From positions 17,769,206 to 17,833,205 of the forward strand of contig OZ038453.1 in the NCBI GenBank assembly GCA_964036195.1: a stretch of DNA of 64,000 bases, given 5' to 3'. Positions 27,892-62,540 of this stretch are shown here, piece after piece. The stretch comes from Sphaerolaimus hirsutus. Taxonomy: Eukaryota; Nematoda; Chromadorea; Monhysterida; Sphaerolaimidae. The notes beneath the pieces were generated by a model that saw only the letters and a list, made by a program, of their open reading frames with translations, did not search any database and had not been told where the DNA came from. The position numbers were made by a program, and so were the translations under genes. Each line of letters begins with the position of its first letter. Position 1 is the first letter of the stretch.

Positions 27892-28509
27892 TGTCACGGC
27901 CGCGTAGTTGCGGGCGTTGAATTTGCTTGGTGGGGGTTTGTTTAGTTGTTTGAAGGAAGAATGGCGGCCCTAATTACACTCTAATTGGTGTGTAGGCAAG
28001 TGCCAATAAAGTTTTTAAGTCCAATTTCCAACAGGCGCTTTTTTTTCAAGCGAAATCCGTTCATAAATATAGTAGAAATTGGGGGAAAAATAGGTAGACT
28101 TATAAGAGAAAATATTGACGAGTCGAAATACAAAAACATTGACTGCCAGCCGATTCAAAATATCAGCTGGACATGCATAAGATATCAGGGGGGTACCTAC
28201 ATAAAAACGTCACAAAACCAATGGCGCCAAACTGTCTACTACAAGGCGCATAGTACCTAACACATACATGAATACCTAAGCCACAGGAAACCGAACACCT
28301 AAAAACCGCTGCGACGCAACCGTTCCGCGGCACGCAAGTACATAATGCATACATGAATACATAAGCACAGAGAAACAATAGGACGGCGCGTGGGGGGGGG
28401 GGGGGAAATCTACTCGCTGGCGTACACTTACAAGTTGCATTTCAAAATCTACCATACGAAAATGAATGTAAATATATAGAAAATAAAGCCTAGGAAGCGC
28501 GGCATAACA
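27892..28509 (-). repeat. LTR (3' LTR in element orientation)
   Basis: Direct copy of 32624-33247, 618 bases, including a G run near 28390 that is longer than in its partner, and AGCCGATTCAAAATATCAGC in the middle. Confidence 0.92.
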
Positions 28510-28858
28510 GCCCCTCCCATGACAACAGTTACACTACCTACGACAGAAACAATAGTGGAACTGGAAGTCAGACAAAAGCTTACATAAAAAGCTACAAAAA
28601 CTTGCAACCACATTGAATTAAGTGGAATTTTCAAGTTACCCAAATATAATGACCAGTAACTAAAAAAACATCCAGAATCACAAATGGATCAGATTGCAGT
28701 GTGATTATAAAAAAACAATTAAGGTACATTTTCACAGCGCACAAATCTATGCCCTAAAATCATGCTAGCACTGCTCAGCCTGGATTCCATCAGGCGCTGG
28801 AACTGAGCCTGGCTTTGTGCTTGCGACGCATGCTCGGCTCGCCCCGATAGTTGGCCAC

Positions 28859-29077
28859 CAGTCAGCCATCGAATTTTGCAACGTCCACAGACATGAACTC
28901 GGCATGTGGTGGCATGTATTTGGCAGAGTTGTAAAAATATTTGGTGTCAGACTTTTTCCATGGGGGTCTGCTGTAGACCTTGGTGCAGTTAGCGCGTGGT
29001 AGTGTAACGGGCTTCGATAAGTGTGATTTTGGATGGCCCACAGTTGGCGCTAAATCGTGTGGTAGCTTAGTGACCAC
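28859..29077 (-). pseudogene. Continuation of the retrotransposon reading frame beyond the hAT insertion
   Basis: The frame from 29077 down to a TGA encodes a basic stretch including PHDLAPTVGHPKSHLSKP and YFYNSAKYMPPHAEFMSV. It belongs to the frame at 31041-31998, with the octamer GTGACCAC duplicated between them. Another 23 codons follow the stop in frame. Function unknown. Confidence 0.45.
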
Positions 29078-31033
29078 TAGGGTGTCAAATTTCCGTTTAT
29101 GTTTTCCGTTTCCGCCTTTCCGCAGGAAAATTTTTTACCTTTCCGTTTTCCGTTTTCCGGCAGCCAAAAAATTTTTACCTTTCCGTTTTCCATTTTCCGG
29201 CAGCCGAAAAATTTTTACCTTTCCGTTTTCCGTTTTCCGGCAGCTGAAAATTTTTTACCTTTCCGTTTCCGTTTTTCCGGCCCATTTTTCCGTTTTCCGG
29301 TTGAAAAATTTTTACCTTTCCGTTTCCGTTTTACCAGGCCATTTTTCCATTTTCTGGCTCAATTTTCAGTTTTCTGGCATTTTGCCATTGTTTTTCCAAT
29401 CTGTATTTATCTTCAATTGGCTCATCCCATTGTGTTGTTTTTGTCTCTTGGAGCAGCATTGACAACTGGGATTTCAGGGTCAGTGAAACAGGTGCTGTGA
29501 ACCCAATTGGGTCATATGCTGACACCAATAATTTATTCAAGTTTTGTCTGGTTGGTGTTGTGATGCTGTCAATTTGTGATATTTGTGTTGATATTGCCAG
29601 CATGTCTGTTCAGTGATTTTATTTCATGCCCATTACTGCAACAATTTTATTCACCTTTGGACTCCTGTCATTTTCTGCTATTTTATTCATGACTGATCTG
29701 GAGTTTGACAGCCATTCCCTCATGTTCATAGAACATTGGTTAAATAAAGCTTTGACTTTGTAATATAGTTCTAAAGCTTCAACTTCATTCGTGACACTCA
29801 TGATGAAGTTATCGATGTAAATGTTGCTTATTATCATTGCCAAATGGTTTTGTTCCCCTTCATTTTCTTCATATTCATTCATATTGTTTATTGTCACATT
29901 TAAATGGTATTTTATGACTGCTCCCAAAATTGCTGGGCTGCAGACAAGTCCAAACAGTACGTGTTAAAAACGAAGTACTATTAAGTTATTTTCAGTTACT
30001 GGTTTTGAGGCATCTTTCAGCCAGAAAAATCGTGTGTAGTCTCTAGCTTGGTCATGCAATCCTATTTGCAAAAGAGTCTTTTCAATATCAGCAATTAATG
30101 CTAGATTGCCTGCCCTGAACCTCAGGAGTAGGCCCAGTGCTAATGGTGTTGTAATTGGTCCTCTAAAAAGGCACTTGTTGAAACTGGGCTTACCTGCAAC
30201 CCATCGTACACGATTCTGCATGATGTCGATTTGCCCGGCATGATTACTGGCTGGTGTGGCAGGTAATGAATCCCCTTGTTGTCTGTTTTGTCATCACAGA
30301 TCTCAATTATTCCCTTTTCTAGTTGGTTGTCCAAAACTTTCCGGTATTGTTCGAATAAGTTTGGATCTTTGTTGAATCTTCTTATCAGTGATTGAAACCG
30401 CACCAAGGCTTCTGCTTTTCCTGTGGGCAGGTCACTGACTCTCTTTATACGGCCAGTCAATATAGTATCGTTTGTTGTTGTCGTTGAATTTTATGCTATT
30501 TATTATCATCTCCTCTGCAATGTTGTCATCAATTGCATAGGGGTCATCAGTGAACCCCACTGCTTCTAGACTGTGAAATTGTCGGAGTGTTTCCTTTCCT
30601 ATTGCCACTATGGCTACTTTTTGATGATTTTTTGTTGGTTCATTTAAGCTTGAACTACAAGTGAAGTTACAGGCATGATCCATAGTTGCAGAATGTACAG
30701 CTACCACAATCAAAGCCAAACAGGCAAACCTGCATGCAGGTTTTCCTTCTGCAAATTTGTCTATTACCGTGCTAATTTCACATTATTTTTTTCCGTTTCC
30801 GTGAAAATTTTGCTTTCCGTTTTCCGTTTTCCGGCATTTCATTTTTCCGTTTTCCGTTTTCCGGCCGACAATTTTTTTTTACCTTTCCGTTTTCCGTTTT
30901 CCGCTGAGTGAAATTTTTTTACCTCTCTGTTTTCCGGCAGAAATTTTTTTTTTACCTTTCCGTTTTCCGTTTTCCGTAAAGTGAAAAAATTTTAACTTTC
31001 CGTTTTCCGTAAAAAAATTTTTTTGACACCCTA
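29078..31033. mobile_element. hAT-like TAGGGTGTCAAA element carrying a BEL/Pao RT pseudogene, TSD GTGACCAC
   Basis: TAGGGTGTCAAATTTCCG at the left and TTTTTGACACCCTA at the right, with GTGACCAC at 29070-29077 and 31034-31041. TTTCCGTTTTCCG arrays fill about 250 bases at each end, in the same orientation. Between them lies the minus-strand RT relic 29331-30719. The second copy is 60608-62540. Confidence 0.88.
29331..30719 (-). pseudogene. BEL/Pao-type reverse transcriptase fragment, frameshifted
   Basis: Frames follow the BEL/Pao RT order: FHSLEAVGFTDDPYAIDD, then EKGIIEICDD and HYLPHQPV, SCRIVYDG, GPITTPLALGLLLRF, ADIEKTLLQIGLHD, YIDN at the catalytic box, and after a stop SAYDPIGFTAPVSL. 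At least two frameshifts, and a stop at 29619-29621 that is also present in the other copy. No gag, integrase or LTRs belong to it; it is bounded by TTTCCG arrays. Dead on sequence grounds. Confidence 0.85.
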
Positions 31034-31040
31034 GTGACCA

Positions 31041-31998
31041 CCGATGGTGTTAGCATTTCCCCTTTAGTTGGGGACCGGCAGGTGTGAATCGATTTGCCCA
31101 TGGCTTTGGGCACGAAATTGGCCTCAAGTTGCTGAAGCTCGGAAATGGCAGTGCGATTCATTTTGAGTGTGCCATAGAGTGCCTTGTGGCCAAATAAAAG
31201 TGGGCTCGATGTGCGTGGGAAGTGTGGTTTCCGTTTAACCACAGCCCAGATGTCTGCCGATTGTTGTTGTCCACCGGGTGTGGTATGCAGCAAATGCAAT
31301 TTGTAGAGTACCAGGTGATGCCCCGGAATTGGCTCGCCAGCAGTCCCCAAACCTGAATCAGGGTATGGCCGGTACTTCACCTTTTCTGTGCTGGCATTGC
31401 ACTGTGCGCGTTTCCATACATCCTTGAGCAGATGCTCCTCGATGATGATCCCCTCCTCACAGCCACTATCGAGTGTGCCTGTGAGCGTGCAGTTCATGAA
31501 ATCCACTTTGGCCAGCGGACGATCACAGCGGGCGTGTCGCATGCTTGGTGGGTTCATGGCACAACCCATCTGCTTGTGAGCTGCGTAGCCGCTAGGGAAC
31601 CACGTTTCAAAATCGGGCTCGGGCTCGGAATCAGATGGTGGATTAGACACATTTTTAGTCAATTTAGTAGATGGATTACCACTAGGTTTAGTGTCAGATT
31701 CAGGGGCACTATAGATGTGCTCATCCACTTTCAGATTGAGTTTGCCACACTCAATGCACATATTTTTCTGAGCATCGTGCTCATTCTTGCCAGCCTGACG
31801 CAGGCTCGTTCCGCCCGATCCACAGGCACAATTCACGTGCGAAGATAGTGCAGGAGTGACTGAACACAACTGGAGTTGCAAAATAGCAGGTAGGTGCCAA
31901 AATGACCGAGAATCGATGTAAATACAAGCAGATGCAGCGATTGGCGCAGTAGTGGCCAAAAGCAACTGCAACCAAATATGCGCAAAACCGGTGCACAA
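31041..31998 (-). CDS. Gag/protease-like reading frame of the 27892-33247 retrotransposon, interrupted
   Basis: About 319 codons on the minus strand before the 29078-31033 insertion. A DSG motif (TLDSGCEEG) and a later LLFGHKAL resemble the catalytic loop and C-terminal glycine motif of a retropepsin. A CxxC pair (CIECG) lies upstream. No capsid domain was recognised. After the insertion the frame resumes at 29077 (VTKLPHDLAPTVGHPKSH) and stops at TGA near 28859. RT, RNase H and integrase motifs are absent. Confidence 0.55.
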
Positions 31999-32091
31999 AT
32001 AGCGTAGCGCAACAGGGAATTCACGTAAAAAACGCGGCAGCAGATGGCTAGCGTCAAAAATTCACACGTTGCAGCGCCTAGGTGCACAAAT

Positions 32092-32475
32092 GGCGCCCCA
32101 GTGGCGCCCTGCGACCAGTGCGTGGGCGTGCAGCACCCCGCGCTGACCCAGCGGAAAACCAGGCCGCACGCGGCCAAATGTGCCTTGAAAATTCGCTGGC
32201 CCCAGTGGCTCAGAGAAAAACGATAAGTTCCCGGTCAGCCCCAGTGGCTGATCGGGTCGACGCGTGGCGCGGCGCCTCGCTGGACTGTCGCTGGCCCCAG
32301 TGGCACAGCGACACGAAAATTGATGAATTCCGGTCAGCCCCAGTGGCTGATCGGATCGAAAACCGGCGCGAAGCGTCGCCACTATGTCGCTAGCCCCAGT
32401 GGCAAAGCGACACGAAAAACGATTTCGATCAGCCCCAGTGGCTGATCGAAGCTGGCCGCGCAGCCCCAGTGGCTG
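32092..32475 (-). repeat. Array of eight constant-loop hairpins in the retrotransposon 5' leader
   Basis: Loops with the same five bases (CCAGT on +, ACUGG in the element RNA) are closed by variable stems at 32092-32108, 32196-32213, 32233-32253, 32286-32313, 32332-32352, 32385-32412, 32424-32450 and 32461-32475. Stems are compensated: GGCGCC/GGCGCC, TCAGCC/GGCTGA, TGTCGCTG/CAGCGACA, and 11 perfect pairs TTCGATCAGCC/GGCTGATCGAA. They lie between the primer-binding site and the presumed coding start at 31998, where retroelement packaging or dimerisation signals are usually found. Function is inferred. Confidence 0.75.
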
Positions 32476-32608
32476 ATAAGCGGCCGGCCGGGCGGGAGCG
32501 ACGCGTGCCGCTAAAGTCCCGCGGCACGAAAACGTGGCGGAATTTTTTCCGCACAGCCGGGTGAACAGGAGGCCCGGGGTCGATTTATGGGAGCTAAATT
32601 AATAGCTC

Positions 32609-32623
32609 CCAGTACGATCACCA
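32609..32623 (-). promoter_or_regulatory. Primer-binding site
   Basis: On the minus strand TGGTGATCGTACTGG lies immediately after the 5' LTR. TGG complements a tRNA 3' CCA; the tRNA is not identified. The adjacent AGCTCCC..GGGAGCT (32590-32610) forms a small hairpin. Confidence 0.7.
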
Positions 32624-33247
32624 TGTCACGGCCGCATAGTTGCGGTCGTTGAATTTGCTTGGTGGGGGTTTGTATAGTTGTTTGAAGGAAGAATGGCGGC
32701 CCTAATTACACTCTTATTGGTGTGTAGGCAAGTGCCAATAAAGTTTCCAAGTCCAATTTCCAACGGGTGCTTTATATTCAAGCGAAATCCGTTCATAAAT
32801 ATAGTAGAAATTGGGGGAAAAATAGGTAGATTTATAAGAGAAAATATTGACGAGTCGAAATACAAAAACATTGACTGCCAGCCGATTCAAAATATCGGCT
32901 GGACATGCATAAGATATCAGGGGGGTACCTACATAAAAACGTCACAAAACCAATGGCGCCAAACTGTCTACTACAAGGCGCATAGTACCTAACACATACA
33001 TGAATACCTAAGCCACAGGAAACCGAACACCTAAAAGCCGCGGCGAAAACCGCCGCGACGCAACCGTTCCGCGGCACGCAAGTACATAATGCATACATGA
33101 ATACATAAGCACAGAGAAACAATAGGACGGCGCGTGGGGGGGAAATCTACTCGCTGGCGTACACTTACAAGTTGCATTTCAAAATCTACCATAAGAAAAT
33201 GAATGTAAATATATAGAAAATAAATGCCTAGGAAGCGCGGCATAACA
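32624..33247 (-). repeat. LTR (5' LTR in element orientation)
   Basis: Direct copy of 27892-28509, 624 bases, with an additional GGCGAAAACCGCC stretch near 33042. The promoter of the element should lie within it. Confidence 0.92.
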
Positions 33248-48372: not shown

Positions 48373-48388
48373 TTTATTCTGTCTTGAC

Positions 48389-49400
48389 CAGGGTTGGCAA
48401 AATCTCAGAAAAAAATAAAAATAAAATAAAAATAAAATGGAATATTCAAGAATAAAATAAAATAAAATAAAATGGAAAATTAAAGAATAAAAATAAAAAT
48501 TGTATAAAAATTCGAATTTTTGTAAAATTTTTGTAAAATTGTATAAAAATTTGTATTTTTGTAAAATTGTATAAAAATTCATATTTTTTGTACAATTTTA
48601 TCTCGTTACTTGAGTTTCTACCTGTTTATTCATGGATCTGGAAGCAGTCCCAAGTGTAAAGTGTCAAATGTCATGTAAAATGTCATGCAAAGTGTCAATT
48701 GTCATGACAAATGTGAAGTAAAGTGTAAATTGTCGTGACATGTAAAAATTAAAGTATCAATTGTCAAGCAAATTGTGTCCAAATCTTAAGTTTTTATATC
48801 TAAATCTTATGTTTTGTATCCAAATTATGTTGTTGTTGAATCCAAATCTTATGTGAACATTTGGATACAAAAACATAAGATTTGGATACAAAACATACTA
48901 TGGATACAAAAACATAAGATTTGGATACACAATTTACACTTTGCATGACATTTTGCATGACAATTGACACTTAACTTTACATTTGTCATGACAATTGACA
49001 AATTGCATTACATTTTACGAATGTGCCCAGCACACTCCACTAGTCCTTCTACTGAAAATGCAAACCATTCTTATCAATAATTGTAACTTTACACTTGCAG
49101 CTAGCTAACAATACATACTGCATGCAACTTTTGAAAAGTAAGGGAAAAATTTGTCACAGGTTTTTTATGTATATGTTTAATTATAACATTTTTCTGGCCT
49201 TGCATGCATGATTCTGATTTTTTGTAAAATTTTTGTACAATTTTTGTAAAATTTTTGTAAAATGTGTCATTTTATTTTATTAATGACTTTTGGGAATAAA
49301 ATAAAATAAAATGAAACAAGAATAAAATAAAAATAAAATACAATTTTTATACAATTTTTATACAATTTTACTAAAATGAATTTTTATAAAACCAACCCTG
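48389..49400. mobile_element. hAT-like CAGGGTTGGCAAAATCTC element, TSD GTCTTGAC, 1012 bases
   Basis: CAGGGTTGGCAAAATCTCAG to ATAAAACCAACCCTG; GTCTTGAC at 48381-48388 and 49401-49408. Nearly identical to 51847-52863 (two or so substitutions and one 5-base AAAAT unit by eye). No coding region. Confidence 0.95.
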
Positions 49401-51162: not shown

Positions 51163-53744
51163 ATGGCCAATGAACAGGGTGCCAATGATGCCCCTGCATT
51201 TAACACTCGCTCACAGAGTGAAAATACCATGAACAATGGTGCCACTGAAAACAGTGCAACAGAAAGCAGTGCTACAAGGCACAATGCCAGAGCACCAGCA
51301 GCAAGTGCTACTGCAAACAATGACCAGGTAGATATGGTCAAGCACATGTGCACATTCATGCAAAACATGATGCAACAGCAAGAGCACATGGCAGATAAGC
51401 AAACAAATGCCATGGACAGCATGATGCATCAACAAGAGCGCATGGCAGATAAGCAATCAGATGCCATGAAAAAAATGATGACATTGCTGACAGAAAAAAT
51501 GTCCATCAGGCACACTGGAACTGCACCAAGTGCTGTGCATGATTTGACCACTGATGTAAGGTACACATCAGAGCAGCGGCATTTGTGGACACCACTGCTA
51601 AATGACAAATTTTCCACCTTTGACGGTGAAGATCCACTGAAATTCAAATTGTGGATGGGCAATTTGAAGGCCCAGATCAAGCTCACTGAAGTGCCAGATG
51701 AGTTTGCAGTGATCCATGTGCGCAAATGCCTGAGTGGCAGAGCTCTGCGCCAATTTGAGCACCTGTCACATGAGGACAGAATGACCTTTGAACAGGTCTG
51801 TGCATTTTTGGAGTCACAATATGGTGGCCATTTTTCTGCTCAAAACCAGGGTTGGCAAAATCTCAGAAAAAAATAAAAATAAAATAAAAATAAAATGGAA
51901 TATTCAAGAATAAAATAAAATAAAATAAAATGGAAAATTAAAGAATAAAAATAAAAATTGTATAAAAATTCGAATTTTTGTAAAATTTTTGTAAAATTGT
52001 ATAAAAATTCGTATTTTTGTAAAATTGTATAAAAATTCATATTTTTTGTACAATTTTATCTCGTTACTTGAGTTTCTACCTGTTTATTCATGGATCTGGA
52101 AGCAGTCCCAAGTGTAAAGTGTCAAATGTCATGTAAAATGTCATGCAAAGTGTCAATTGTCATGACAAATGTGAAGTAAAGTGTAAATTGTCATGACATG
52201 TAAAAATTAAAGTATCAATTGTCAAGCAAATTGTGTCCAAATCTTAAGTTTTTATATCTAAATCTTATGTTTTGTATCCAAATTATGTTGTTGTTGAATC
52301 CAAATCTTATGTGAACATTTGGATACAAAAACATAAGATTTGGATACAAAACATACTATGGATACAAAAACATAAGATTTGGATACACAATTTACACTTT
52401 GCATGACATTTTGCATGACAATTGACACTTAACTTTACATTTGTCATGACAATTGACAAATTGCATTACATTTTACGAATGTGCCCAGCACACTCCACTA
52501 GTCCTTCTACTGAAAATGCAAACCATTCTTATCAATAATTGTAACTTTACACTTGCAGCTAGCTAACAATACATACTGCATGCAACTTTTGAAAAGTAAG
52601 GGAAAAATTTGTCACAGGTTTTTTATGTATATGTTTAATTATAACATTTTTCTGGCCTTGCATGCATGATTCTGATTTTTTGTAAAATTTTTGTACAATT
52701 TTTGTAAAATTTTTGTAAAATGTGTCATTTTATTTTATTAATGACTTTTGGGAATAAAATAAAATAAAATAAAATGAAACAAGAATAAAATAAAAATAAA
52801 ATACAATTTTTATACAATTTTTATACAATTTTACTAAAATGAATTTTTATAAAACCAACCCTGCTCAAAACACAATGAACAAGCTGATCACCACAAAACA
52901 ATCAGCTAAGGAACAAGTCAAGGATTTAGGCTTGTTGATTGAGAGCTTGGTGCGAAAAGCCATGCCAAACATAGTGCCGGCAGCTCTCAAAGTGCAATTG
53001 AAGCACTATTTTATGTCTGGCTTGCAGAATCAGACACTGCAAAATGCACTGTATGCATTGCCAACTTATGAGCTCATGACATTCAAGGAGCTGGTTGAAA
53101 ATGCTGAAAGGCTGGAATTCGCTGAGAAGCGAGTGAAAGTGCATGCACCAAATGCACAGAAATTTTGTGTCATGCATGGCACACACACACATTCAACTGA
53201 AGAATGTGACATTGCTGCCAGCCAGGCTAAGCGAATTGCAAATGAAAAGCTGGCAAGGCACAATGGCAAGCCTGGAGCAAATGGCTTCAACAGGCCCAGG
53301 CAGTGGAATGCAAATCACTTCCCGCCTCAAGTGCAGCAACATGCTGCAGGTGCTGAAAACAGCCAAATGTACCAGAAAAAATGGTGCAAATTTCACAAGT
53401 CTGTCACACATGACACACAGGATTGCTGGATGTCCAAAAGGGACAATGTGAATGAGCAACCTGTGATAACAGAATGGACAAAGTCCAAAGTGCACAAAAT
53501 TGATTGCAACCAGGAGGGTGGATCTCCAAGTGCTGTGAATAGAGTACAGCATGTGGCACAGCCACAAAAAGTGCAAATGAAGCCAAAAACTGGCTCAAAA
53601 GTCAATCAGCCATGTGCCTATTTGAATGGCACACAATTTGACACTTGTCGCCCAGACAGTGGAGCTGATGTGACCATTGTGACTGGAAATGTGATCAAAA
53701 AGTTGGGCTTGATGGCAAGGCCTGGCAGGAACTGCTTGCTGTGA
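51163..53744 (+). pseudogene. Retrotransposon Gag, interrupted by a hAT, running into protease
   Basis: 51163-51846 codes for a Gln/Met-rich N terminus with repeated MADKQ.DAM heptad-like motifs (coiled coil), then a capsid-like region (FSTFDGEDPLKFKLWMGNLK, LSGRALRQFEHL). The frame continues at 52872, past the inserted hAT and one copy of the octamer. Two nucleocapsid-type knuckles of form CX2HX4HX4C follow (CVMHGTHTHSTEEC, CKFHKSVTHDTQDC), then a retropepsin DSGADVTIV. It stops at 53742-53744 because of a frameshift; the downstream part is 53741-54094. Start chosen at the ATG beginning MANEQGAND. Inactive as it stands. Confidence 0.85.
51847..52863. mobile_element. hAT-like CAGGGTTGGCAAAATCTC element inserted in gag, TSD CTCAAAAC, 1017 bases
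   Basis: CAGGGTTGGCAAAATCTCAG to ATAAAACCAACCCTG; CTCAAAAC at 51839-51846 and 52864-52871. The gag frame would be continuous across a single octamer. One extra AAAAT unit relative to 48389-49400. Confidence 0.96.
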
Positions 53745-60607: not shown

Positions 60608-62540
60608 TAGGGTGTCAAATTTCCGTTTCCGCCTTTCCGCAGTAAAAGTTTTTACCTTTCCGTTTTCCGTTTTCCGGCAGCCGAAAATTTTTTACCTTTC
60701 CGGTTTCTGTTTTCCGGCAGCCGAAAAATTTTTACCTTTCCGTTTTCCGTTTTCCGGCAGCTGAAAATTTTTTACCTTTCCGTTTCCGTTTTTCCGGGCC
60801 ATTTTTCCGCTTTCCAGATGAAAAATTTTTACCTTTCCGTTTCCGTTTTACCAGGCCATTTTTCTATTTTCTGGCTCGATTTTCAGTTTTCTGGCATTTT
60901 TCCATTGTTTTTCCAATCTGTATTTATCTTCAATTGGCTCATCCCATTGTGTTGTTATTGTCTCTTGGAGCAGCATTGACAACTGGGATTTCAGGGTCAG
61001 TGAAACAGGTGCTGTGAACCCAATTGGGTCATATGCTGACACCAATAATTTATTCAAGTTTCGTCTGGTTGGTGTTGTGATGCTGTCAATTTGCAATTTA
61101 GGTGTTGATATTGCCAGCATGTCCATTTGGTGATTTTATTTCATGCCCATTACTGCGACAGTTTTATTCACCTTTGGACTCCTGTCGTTTTCTGCTATTT
61201 CATTCATGACTGATCTGGAGTTTGACAGCCATTCCCTCATGTTCATAGAACATTGGTTAAATAAAGCTTTGGCCTTGTAATATAGTTCTAAAGCTTCAAC
61301 TTCATTTGTGACACTCATGATGAAGTTATCGACATAAATGTTGTTTATTATCATAGCCAACTGGTTTTGTTCCCCTTCATTTTCTTCATATTCATTCATG
61401 TTGTTTATTGTCACATTTAAATGGTATTTTATGACAGCTCCCAAAATTGCTGGGCTGCAGACAAGTCCAAACAGTAGGCGTTTAAAACAAAGTACTATTA
61501 AGTTATTTTCAGTTACTGGTTTTGAGGCAAGTTTCAGCCAGAAAAATTGTGTGTAGTCTCTAGCTTGGTCATGCAATCCTATTTGCAAAAATGTCTTTTC
61601 AATATCTGCAATTAATGCTAGATTGCCTGCCCTGAACCTCAGGAGTAGGCCCAGTGCTAATGGTGTTGTAATTGGTCCTCTAAAAAGGCACTCGTTGAAA
61701 CTGGGCTTACCTGCCGACCCATCGTACACGATTCTGCATGATGTCGATTTGCCCGGCGTAATTACTGGCTGGTGTGGCAGGTAATGAATCCCCTTGTTGT
61801 CTGTTTTGTCATCACAGATCTCAATTATTCCCTTTTCTAGTTGGTCGTCCAAAACTTTCCGGTATTGTTCAAATAAGTTTGGATCTTTGTTGAATCTTCT
61901 TATCAGTGATTTAAACCACACCAAGGCTTCTGCTTTTCCCGTGGGCAGGTCACTGATACCCTCTTTATATGGCCAGTCAATATAGTATTGTTTGTTGTTG
62001 TCATTGAATTTTATGCTATTTATTATCATCTCCTCTGCAATGTTGTCATCAATTGCATAGGGGTCATCAGTGATTCCCACTGCTTCTAGACTGTGAAATT
62101 GTCATAGTGTTTCCTTTCCTATGGCCACTATGGCTACTTTTTGATGATTTTTTGTTGGTTCAGTTAAGCTTGAACTACAAGTGAAGTTACAGGCATGATC
62201 CATAGTTGCAGAATGTACAGCTACCACAACCAGCTGCATGCAGGTTTTCCTTCTGCAAATTTGTCTATTACCGTGCTAATTTCACTTTATTTTTTTCCGT
62301 TTCCATGAAAATTTTGCTTTCCGTTTTCTGTTTTCCGGCATTTCATTTTTCCGTTTTCCGTTTTCCAGCCGAAAATTTTTTTTTACCTTTCCGTTTTCCG
62401 TTTTCCGCTGAGTGAAATTTTTTTACCTTTCCGTTTTCCGTTTTCTGGCAGAAATTTTTTTTTTACCTTTCCGTTTTCCGTTTTCCGTAAAGTGAAAAAA
62501 TTTTACCTTTCCGTTTTCCGTTTTCAGTAAAAAAAATTTC
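60608..62540. mobile_element. Second hAT-like TAGGGTGTCAAA element carrying the BEL/Pao RT pseudogene
   Basis: TAGGGTGTCAAATTTCCG at the left, TTTCCGTTTTCCG arrays at both ends, RT relic between. The right terminus (GACACCCTA) is missing; the sequence breaks off in an A run at about 62538, 24 bases before the CD36-family stop codon. Confidence 0.82.
60848..62100 (-). pseudogene. BEL/Pao-type reverse transcriptase fragment, one internal stop
   Basis: Better preserved than the copy at 29331-30719: one frame from 62080 to 61136, then, after a TAA at 61136-61138, the same frame to 60848. Visible RT landmarks: EKGIIEICDD, LPHQPV, SCRIVYDGSAGKPSFNECLF, ADIEKTFLQIGLHDQARDY, FGLVCSPAILGAVIKYHL, catalytic box YVDN (the usual second Asp is Asn), and AYDPIGFTAPVSL beyond the stop. 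It lacks protease, RNase H, integrase and LTRs, so it is a captured segment. Confidence 0.87.

Follow-up and report, generated by a model that had tools for sequence, protein, structure and literature searches.

The window, a 64-kb stretch of DNA, contains an LTR retrotransposon that spans positions 27892-33247 on the minus strand. The element has what characterizes this class: a pair of LTRs with TG...CA ends, a CTTC target duplication flanking the outer sides of both LTRs, and a primer-binding site (PBS). Its flanks match another repeat of the window without the insertion. Two near-identical repeat units of the same type as the insertion target lie at 48387-49400 and 51845-52866, 3458 bp apart. 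The features of the element are listed below.

32624-33247, minus strand: 5' LTR, 624 bp, TG...CA, 94.6% identical to 27892-28509
32605-32623, minus strand: PBS TGGTGATCGTACTGGGAGC, directly after the 5' LTR
32589-32610, minus strand: PBS-adjacent hairpin GGGAGCTA-TTAATT-TAGCTCCC, compensated between copies (GCTA/TAGC to GCGA/TCGC)
31032-31804, minus strand: remnant of a Gag-like ORF, C-terminal part, collinear with 1920-2692 of copy L098
27892-28509, minus strand: 3' LTR, 618 bp

Three parts of the window copy are collinear with L098: the leader, the C-terminal portion of an 874-aa ORF, and the 3' end. Most of the Gag-like ORF (about 349-1919 of L098) was deleted, and the collinear matches with other copies leave no pol of its own. 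The pol piece at 29103-31010, which we take to be Pao-like, recurs at 60620-62521 with about 95% identity; both pol fragments carry TTTCCGTTTTCCG repeats. A Pfam search with the relative at 61136-62101 gave an RVT_1 match only, below the cut-off. This piece is absent from the collinear matches of other copies and is a nested insertion, and BEL/Pao was therefore rejected as the class of the host element. In the case of the autonomous copy L103, Pfam detected RVT_1 and RT_RNaseH(_2), followed by Integrase_H2C2 and rve. By this domain order and by the RNase H models matched, the autonomous copies are classed as Ty3/gypsy-like. BEL/Pao elements have the same domain order, so the assignment also leans on the Pfam RNase H models.

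Between the PBS and the coding region, the leader holds eight exact minus-strand copies of the core GCCACTGGGGC, with starts at 32095, 32199, 32238, 32294, 32337, 32393, 32432 and 32463. Each core reads GCC-ACTGG-GGC, and all eight lie within 32092-32485; the exact core was found nowhere else in the 64-kb window. The hairpins built on these cores are the following.

32454-32485, minus strand: hairpin 1, PBS-proximal, core 32463-32473; apical 5-bp CAGCC/GGCTG, internal loop, outer GGCCGC/GCGGCC
32424-32450, minus strand: hairpin 2, Q type, loop ACTGG, 11 perfect pairs TTCGATCAGCC/GGCTGATCGAA
32385-32412, minus strand: hairpin 3, T type, outer 7-bp stem, internal loop of 2+1 bases, core stem of 3 bp
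32329-32355, minus strand: hairpin 4, Q type, one A.C mismatch in the element RNA
32286-32313, minus strand: hairpin 5, T type, outer 8-bp stem, one bulged base, core stem of 3 bp
32230-32256, minus strand: hairpin 6, Q type, one A.C mismatch in the element RNA
32192-32217, minus strand: hairpin 7, T type, one bulge and one mismatch
32092-32108, minus strand: hairpin 8, G type, GGCGCC/GGCGCC around ACTGG

In all eight hairpins the pentaloop ACTGG is closed by GCC/GGC, and the stem differs past those three pairs. Four sorts of stem were distinguished: G (GGCGCC), Q (CGATCA/TGATCG), T (GTCGCTG, with a bulge beside the core) and PBS-proximal (CAGCC, with the outer GGCCGC). The minimum-energy fold of the window leader closes all eight loops. 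The description of eight hairpins with one invariant loop in the first-pass annotation is confirmed. Among the stems named there, the 6-bp GGCGCC, TGTCGCTG-GCC with one bulge and TTCGATCAGCC with 11 perfect pairs are present. Several details had to be corrected: the hairpin with its loop at 32396 carries an internal loop, two bases against one, that with its loop at 32202 a bulge and a mismatch, and the outer GGCCGC/GCGGCC stem of the PBS-proximal hairpin (32454-32485) was missing from the list. In addition, two of the three Q-type hairpins (loops at 32241 and 32340) have an A.C mismatch in the element RNA, where G.T is present only on the other strand. The stretch 32231-32448 is made up of a 99-bp tandem unit that contains a Q and a T hairpin, and hence the eight hairpins are not of eight independent origins. 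Native hairpins averaged -17.1 kcal/mol and those with arms exchanged between stem types -9.1 kcal/mol, an average cost of 8 kcal/mol; one exchange reached -19.6 kcal/mol, equal to a native hairpin. When the flanks were shuffled on the element strand, six of eight hairpins ranked in the best 1.5%, and the G type (4%) and the third T hairpin at 32202 (8%) were weak taken singly. The cores are spaced by 31, 39, 56, 43, 56, 39 and 104 nt. They fall in all three reading frames, and a protein-coding repeat was rejected on this ground. Loop-loop kissing of the hairpins was rejected by inspection, since ACUGG is not self-complementary. A search of the window against Rfam gave no family at the gathering score.

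The genome (348 Mb in 762 contigs) was then searched for other copies, and 44 leaders were read. Forty of them, among which is that of the window, came from a similarity search with the window leader, in which overlapping matches were merged, and are the best 40 of 112 candidates, with less similar leaders under-sampled; four were found by a two-core pattern only, for which two exact cores were required. Exact cores number 7-12 in each of the 44 leaders (8-10 in the four pattern-only ones) and 425 altogether, and the hairpins are thus shared by other copies. The PBS is found at the LTR edge, with 0-2 mismatches, in each of the 44, and the first core follows 87-198 nt downstream. All 425 cores lie downstream of the PBS in the orientation of the element; none was found upstream of it in 38,811 nt and none in antisense. 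In 11 downstream stretches, core starts are confined to the first 59 bases. The position proposed at first, after the PBS and before the ORF, is therefore borne out in the window and in other copies. A second, PBS-adjacent hairpin occurs at the same place in the 44 leaders, with arms GGGAGCTA or GGGAGCGA.

Genome-wide, the paired-core pattern occurs 571 times and the reversed pattern not at all, and the 15-mer CAGCCACTGGGGCTG has 418 places against 13 for its reversed pattern. These places are clustered: among the first 100 listed there is one clear singleton, C2:10159094, and C3:17997966 may be either. The leader at C3:1537172-1537701 has a two-hairpin unit of about 90 bp repeated about six times, which is a natural expansion of the array. 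Twenty loci with the pattern in viral_contigs were rejected; they have no DNA similarity to the window and by eye look like short coding repeats, many of them collagen-like.

To measure the conservation of the loop, hairpins were collected by their flanks and not by the core, with up to 5 mismatches in 28 flank positions to an exact-core hairpin, a procedure that misses joint losses of core and flank. This collection gave 462 places, namely 425 with the exact core, 34 with one change and three with more than one. GCCATTGGGGC makes up 13 of the 34 one-change cores. For the Q type, the inferred changes per column were 20.5 in the linker, 9.9 in the stem, 1.2 in the core stem and 2.2 in the loop. 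The corresponding values were 18.4, 9.6, 0.8 and 0.6 for the T type, and 3.5, 1.1, 0.2 and 0.6 for the PBS-proximal type. The loop thus changed about 9 times (Q) and 31 times (T) less than the linkers. The 10-nt arms occur in 170 distinct forms, which fall into 16 clusters, two of them large (T and Q). Small clusters share the core on stems unrelated to T or Q, such as GATCTACCTG/CAGGTAGA in eight leaders and GTTAACTG/CAGTTT in four; eight of the 16 clusters consist of a single form each, with pairing that ranges from good to almost none. The loop is nearly frozen, and tandem duplication, which multiplies the hairpins, leaves the frozen loop unexplained.

Compensation in the stems was assessed on trees of 116 Q forms and 125 T forms, with sequences of about 50 nt. 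The covariation tests left out 61 of the 425 hairpins (46 Qp and 15 other), and the null consisted of 200 simulations that kept the number of changes per column. We counted nine compensatory events in Q and eight in T, above each of the 200 null runs (means of 0.8 and 2.3, maxima of 6 and 6). Eight of 18 pairs tested singly reached p 0.05. One-sided changes that break a pair were more numerous than the null in Q (38 against 23) and somewhat fewer in T (32 against 40). At one Q pair, 34 of the 116 forms have A.C, and at another 24 of 116 have C.A; many of the sampled copies may be dead and decaying. Within folds of the leaders, the mean probability of the closing pair was 0.65, compared with 0.19 when the 5' arms were shuffled among hairpins, and 279 of 425 closing pairs are within the minimum-energy fold of their own leader.

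An inverted minisatellite, in which tandem duplication multiplies the unit and template switching in imperfect palindromes keeps the stems self-complementary, would require no selection on RNA. Tandem duplication is real, as indicated by the 99-bp units of the window and the units of about 90 bp at C3:1537172-1537701. Template switching can yield compensated changes in the absence of selection, and stem-breaking changes are about as frequent as in the null. This explanation nevertheless fails on the loop, which is not palindromic and stays constant, with about 9-31 times more change in the linkers of the same units, and on the presence of the same loop on stems unrelated in sequence. We regard it as improbable. 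The proposal that a constant loop on differing, paired stems is a sign of selection on RNA structure is supported both by the compensatory events and by the loop counts, and we consider such selection well supported.

The strand on which selection acts was examined in one-sided changes from Watson-Crick pairs. On the element strand, 49 of these changes led to G.U and 30 to A.C (p 0.04), and this excess modestly suggests that selection acts on the sense RNA. It speaks against an array that works at the level of DNA, as an insulator, an enhancer or a set of protein-binding repeats whose inverted arms would be dyad sites. The same sequence is of course present in DNA, and dyad sites are common for DNA-binding dimers. 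However, the conserved 11-mer is asymmetric at its centre, the stems tend to stay complementary as they vary, and each of the 425 cores is oriented like the element. Of the explanations considered here, we hold this one to be the least probable.

Two relatives, at 85% and 79%, were each represented by one leader. In the 85% relative (L111 and L109), the leader was read from the PBS to the ATG; it has no exact core, the best match having two mismatches, and no array. A scan for any ACTGG pentaloop revealed a single hairpin, GGGC-ACTGG-GCCC, with a two-base bulge and an outer CGCTAGTG/CACTAGCG stem, which a search for the exact core or for at least five uninterrupted pairs misses. It is located at about 160-190 of the reverse complement of L109 and has a T-like architecture (a bulge and a long outer stem) on an unrelated stem. 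The hairpin is one of eight pentaloops with at least four pairs in that leader, and if all loops are equally likely, ACTGG is estimated to occur among eight by chance about once per 130 such leaders. The piece read from the 79% relative (L110) contains no ACTGG, and its PBS is similar. The array thus appears so far in one lineage and, judging from the leaders compared, has perhaps grown from a single ancestral ACTGG hairpin like that of the 85% relative. At the place of the PBS-adjacent hairpin, the 85% relative has GGGAGAGCC-GGATT-GGCTCTCCC (L111).

The same relative bears on the view that the loops help to capture or place the primer tRNA by pairing near its T stem. The PBS holds ACTGGG, which is the loop with its 3' neighbour in the core GCCACTGGGGC; by our estimate, a 19-mer and an 11-mer share a run of six bases by chance in about 2% of cases. 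In the 85% relative, an almost identical PBS occurs without the array, and priming needs neither 7-12 copies nor variable stems. A role in priming is therefore very improbable.

The coding capacity of the copies was examined in the 11 downstream stretches. Seven have one long frame of 854-882 aa, one has a frame of 790 aa, one has frames of 608 and 265 aa, and in two, of which one is L103, the long frames reach the end of the stretch. The seven (L098-L102, L105 and L107) have a Gag-like frame and no long pol frame, which points to a Gag-only class beside the autonomous copies. The shorter Gag-like frame shares about 70% identity with L103 over the first 700 aa of the latter. With the first 400 aa of the Gag-like ORF from L098, L101 and L103, Pfam gave no family at the cut-off, so the label Gag rests on the position before pol. 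By eye, the ORF contains a C-x4-H-x5-H-x4-C stretch, which could be a zinc knuckle, and the frame of L098 contains LDSGC, a protease-like motif. In L104 (C3:5012780-5019780), the long frame starts at about 1.8 kb, compared with about 0.2 kb in L103, and there may be an insertion between its leader and the frame. The seven copies resemble TR-GAG elements, which are non-autonomous LTR retrotransposons with Gag only. In the TR-GAG abstracts consulted, which are mainly from plant papers, leader hairpins such as those seen here are not mentioned.

A search of the genome with a 200-aa piece of the reverse transcriptase (RT) gave, among the best 150 of 1812 matches, 20 places at 95-100% identity, three at 84-85%, 114 at 70-80% and 13 at 47-50%; a search of viral_contigs with an RT piece gave no match. 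An RT of the group with at least 95% identity is found within 7 kb of six of the 44 leaders but not of the other 38, and paired cores are present near one 95% RT copy, at C1:9957346. Autonomous and RT-less copies accordingly appear to share the leader signal, as would be expected of a signal for packaging.

We consider it somewhat probable that the array acts in cis as a modular, multivalent RNA signal of this Ty3/gypsy-like family, most likely for packaging by Gag, the presumed partner. Each module would be a stem-loop that presents the pentaloop ACUGG closed by GCC/GGC, with the sequence of the stem free as long as pairing is kept. The 7-12 exact modules, irregularly spaced (31-104 nt in the window), would show one loop many times, and a loop-specific protein could bind several of them together. 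The likeliest binder would be the family's own Gag, which may nucleate packaging of the autonomous RNA and also package the RNA of copies that depend on others for reverse transcriptase. The modules would multiply by tandem duplication, after which the stems drift with compensation and the loop is held. Gag is the most economical candidate for three reasons. RT-less copies must keep what brings them into particles. The packaging region of Ty1 is near the 5' end, where, according to the available part of a review on Ty1 and Ty3, packaging depends on sequence within the first 580 nt (PMC4974528). Finally, as far as the excerpted report states, multiple stem-loops with a common loop motif regulate HBV nucleocapsid assembly in vitro (PMC7612645).

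The main rival is that the hairpins bind an RNA-binding protein of the host, which would act in translation, localisation, stability or germ-line expression control, and not Gag. The leader is part of the mRNA as well as of the genomic RNA, and host regulators use arrays of stem-loops with one loop; the accessible portion of one paper describes destabilisation of Hsp83 mRNA by Smaug via eight SREs (PMC4053848). Smaug recognition elements are similar to the present hairpins in that several occur together, their stems are non-specific and the loop contains CUGG. Their rule, as given in that portion, is CNGG at the 5' end of a loop of 4-8 nt with the preceding base paired (PMC4053848). Here CUGG is preceded by an A that is unpaired in the predicted folds, and a Smaug element was rejected for this reason. 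The clustering of the CAGCCACTGGGGCTG places, with a single clear singleton among the first 100 listed, also argues against a host protein as the partner, and we find this explanation unlikely.

Packaging by Gag, the reading we prefer, has parallels in known systems. As in Ty1 and Ty3, the leader has a candidate cis-acting RNA near the 5' end, and elements without the proteins are mobilised in trans there if the cis RNA is kept; the consulted part of the review, which gives both ends as the site of the cis sequences of Ty3, does not describe an array of hairpins with identical loops (PMC4974528). The packaging signals of HBV (PMC7612645) and MS2 (PMC4751978) likewise consist of numerous stem-loops whose loops have a recognition motif in common. 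In the parts of these reports that were available, their sites are distributed genome-wide and share a short degenerate motif, whereas here copies of one exact pentaloop are grouped together in an LTR-element leader. A retroelement leader signal is thus of a known kind, and for the build of the array, with its one-loop hairpins, no description was found in the open-licence papers searched.

More tentatively, the array may be a new design of packaging signal, a self-multiplying, stem-agnostic array of one pentaloop that would offer many equal docking sites to Gag. It would have arisen in one Ty3/gypsy lineage, perhaps from a single hairpin, and RT-less copies could compete through more or better sites. 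How Gag chooses its own RNA in LTR retrotransposons is an open question, and according to the available part of the Ty1 and Ty3 review, the sequences and structures that act in cis in packaging have yet to be clearly defined (PMC4974528). The candidate signal is unusually testable: the loop is short and exact, it is present 7-12 times on interchangeable stems, and it occurs in both autonomous and RT-less copies. The array would represent a regulatory RNA module that multiplies by duplication under selection.
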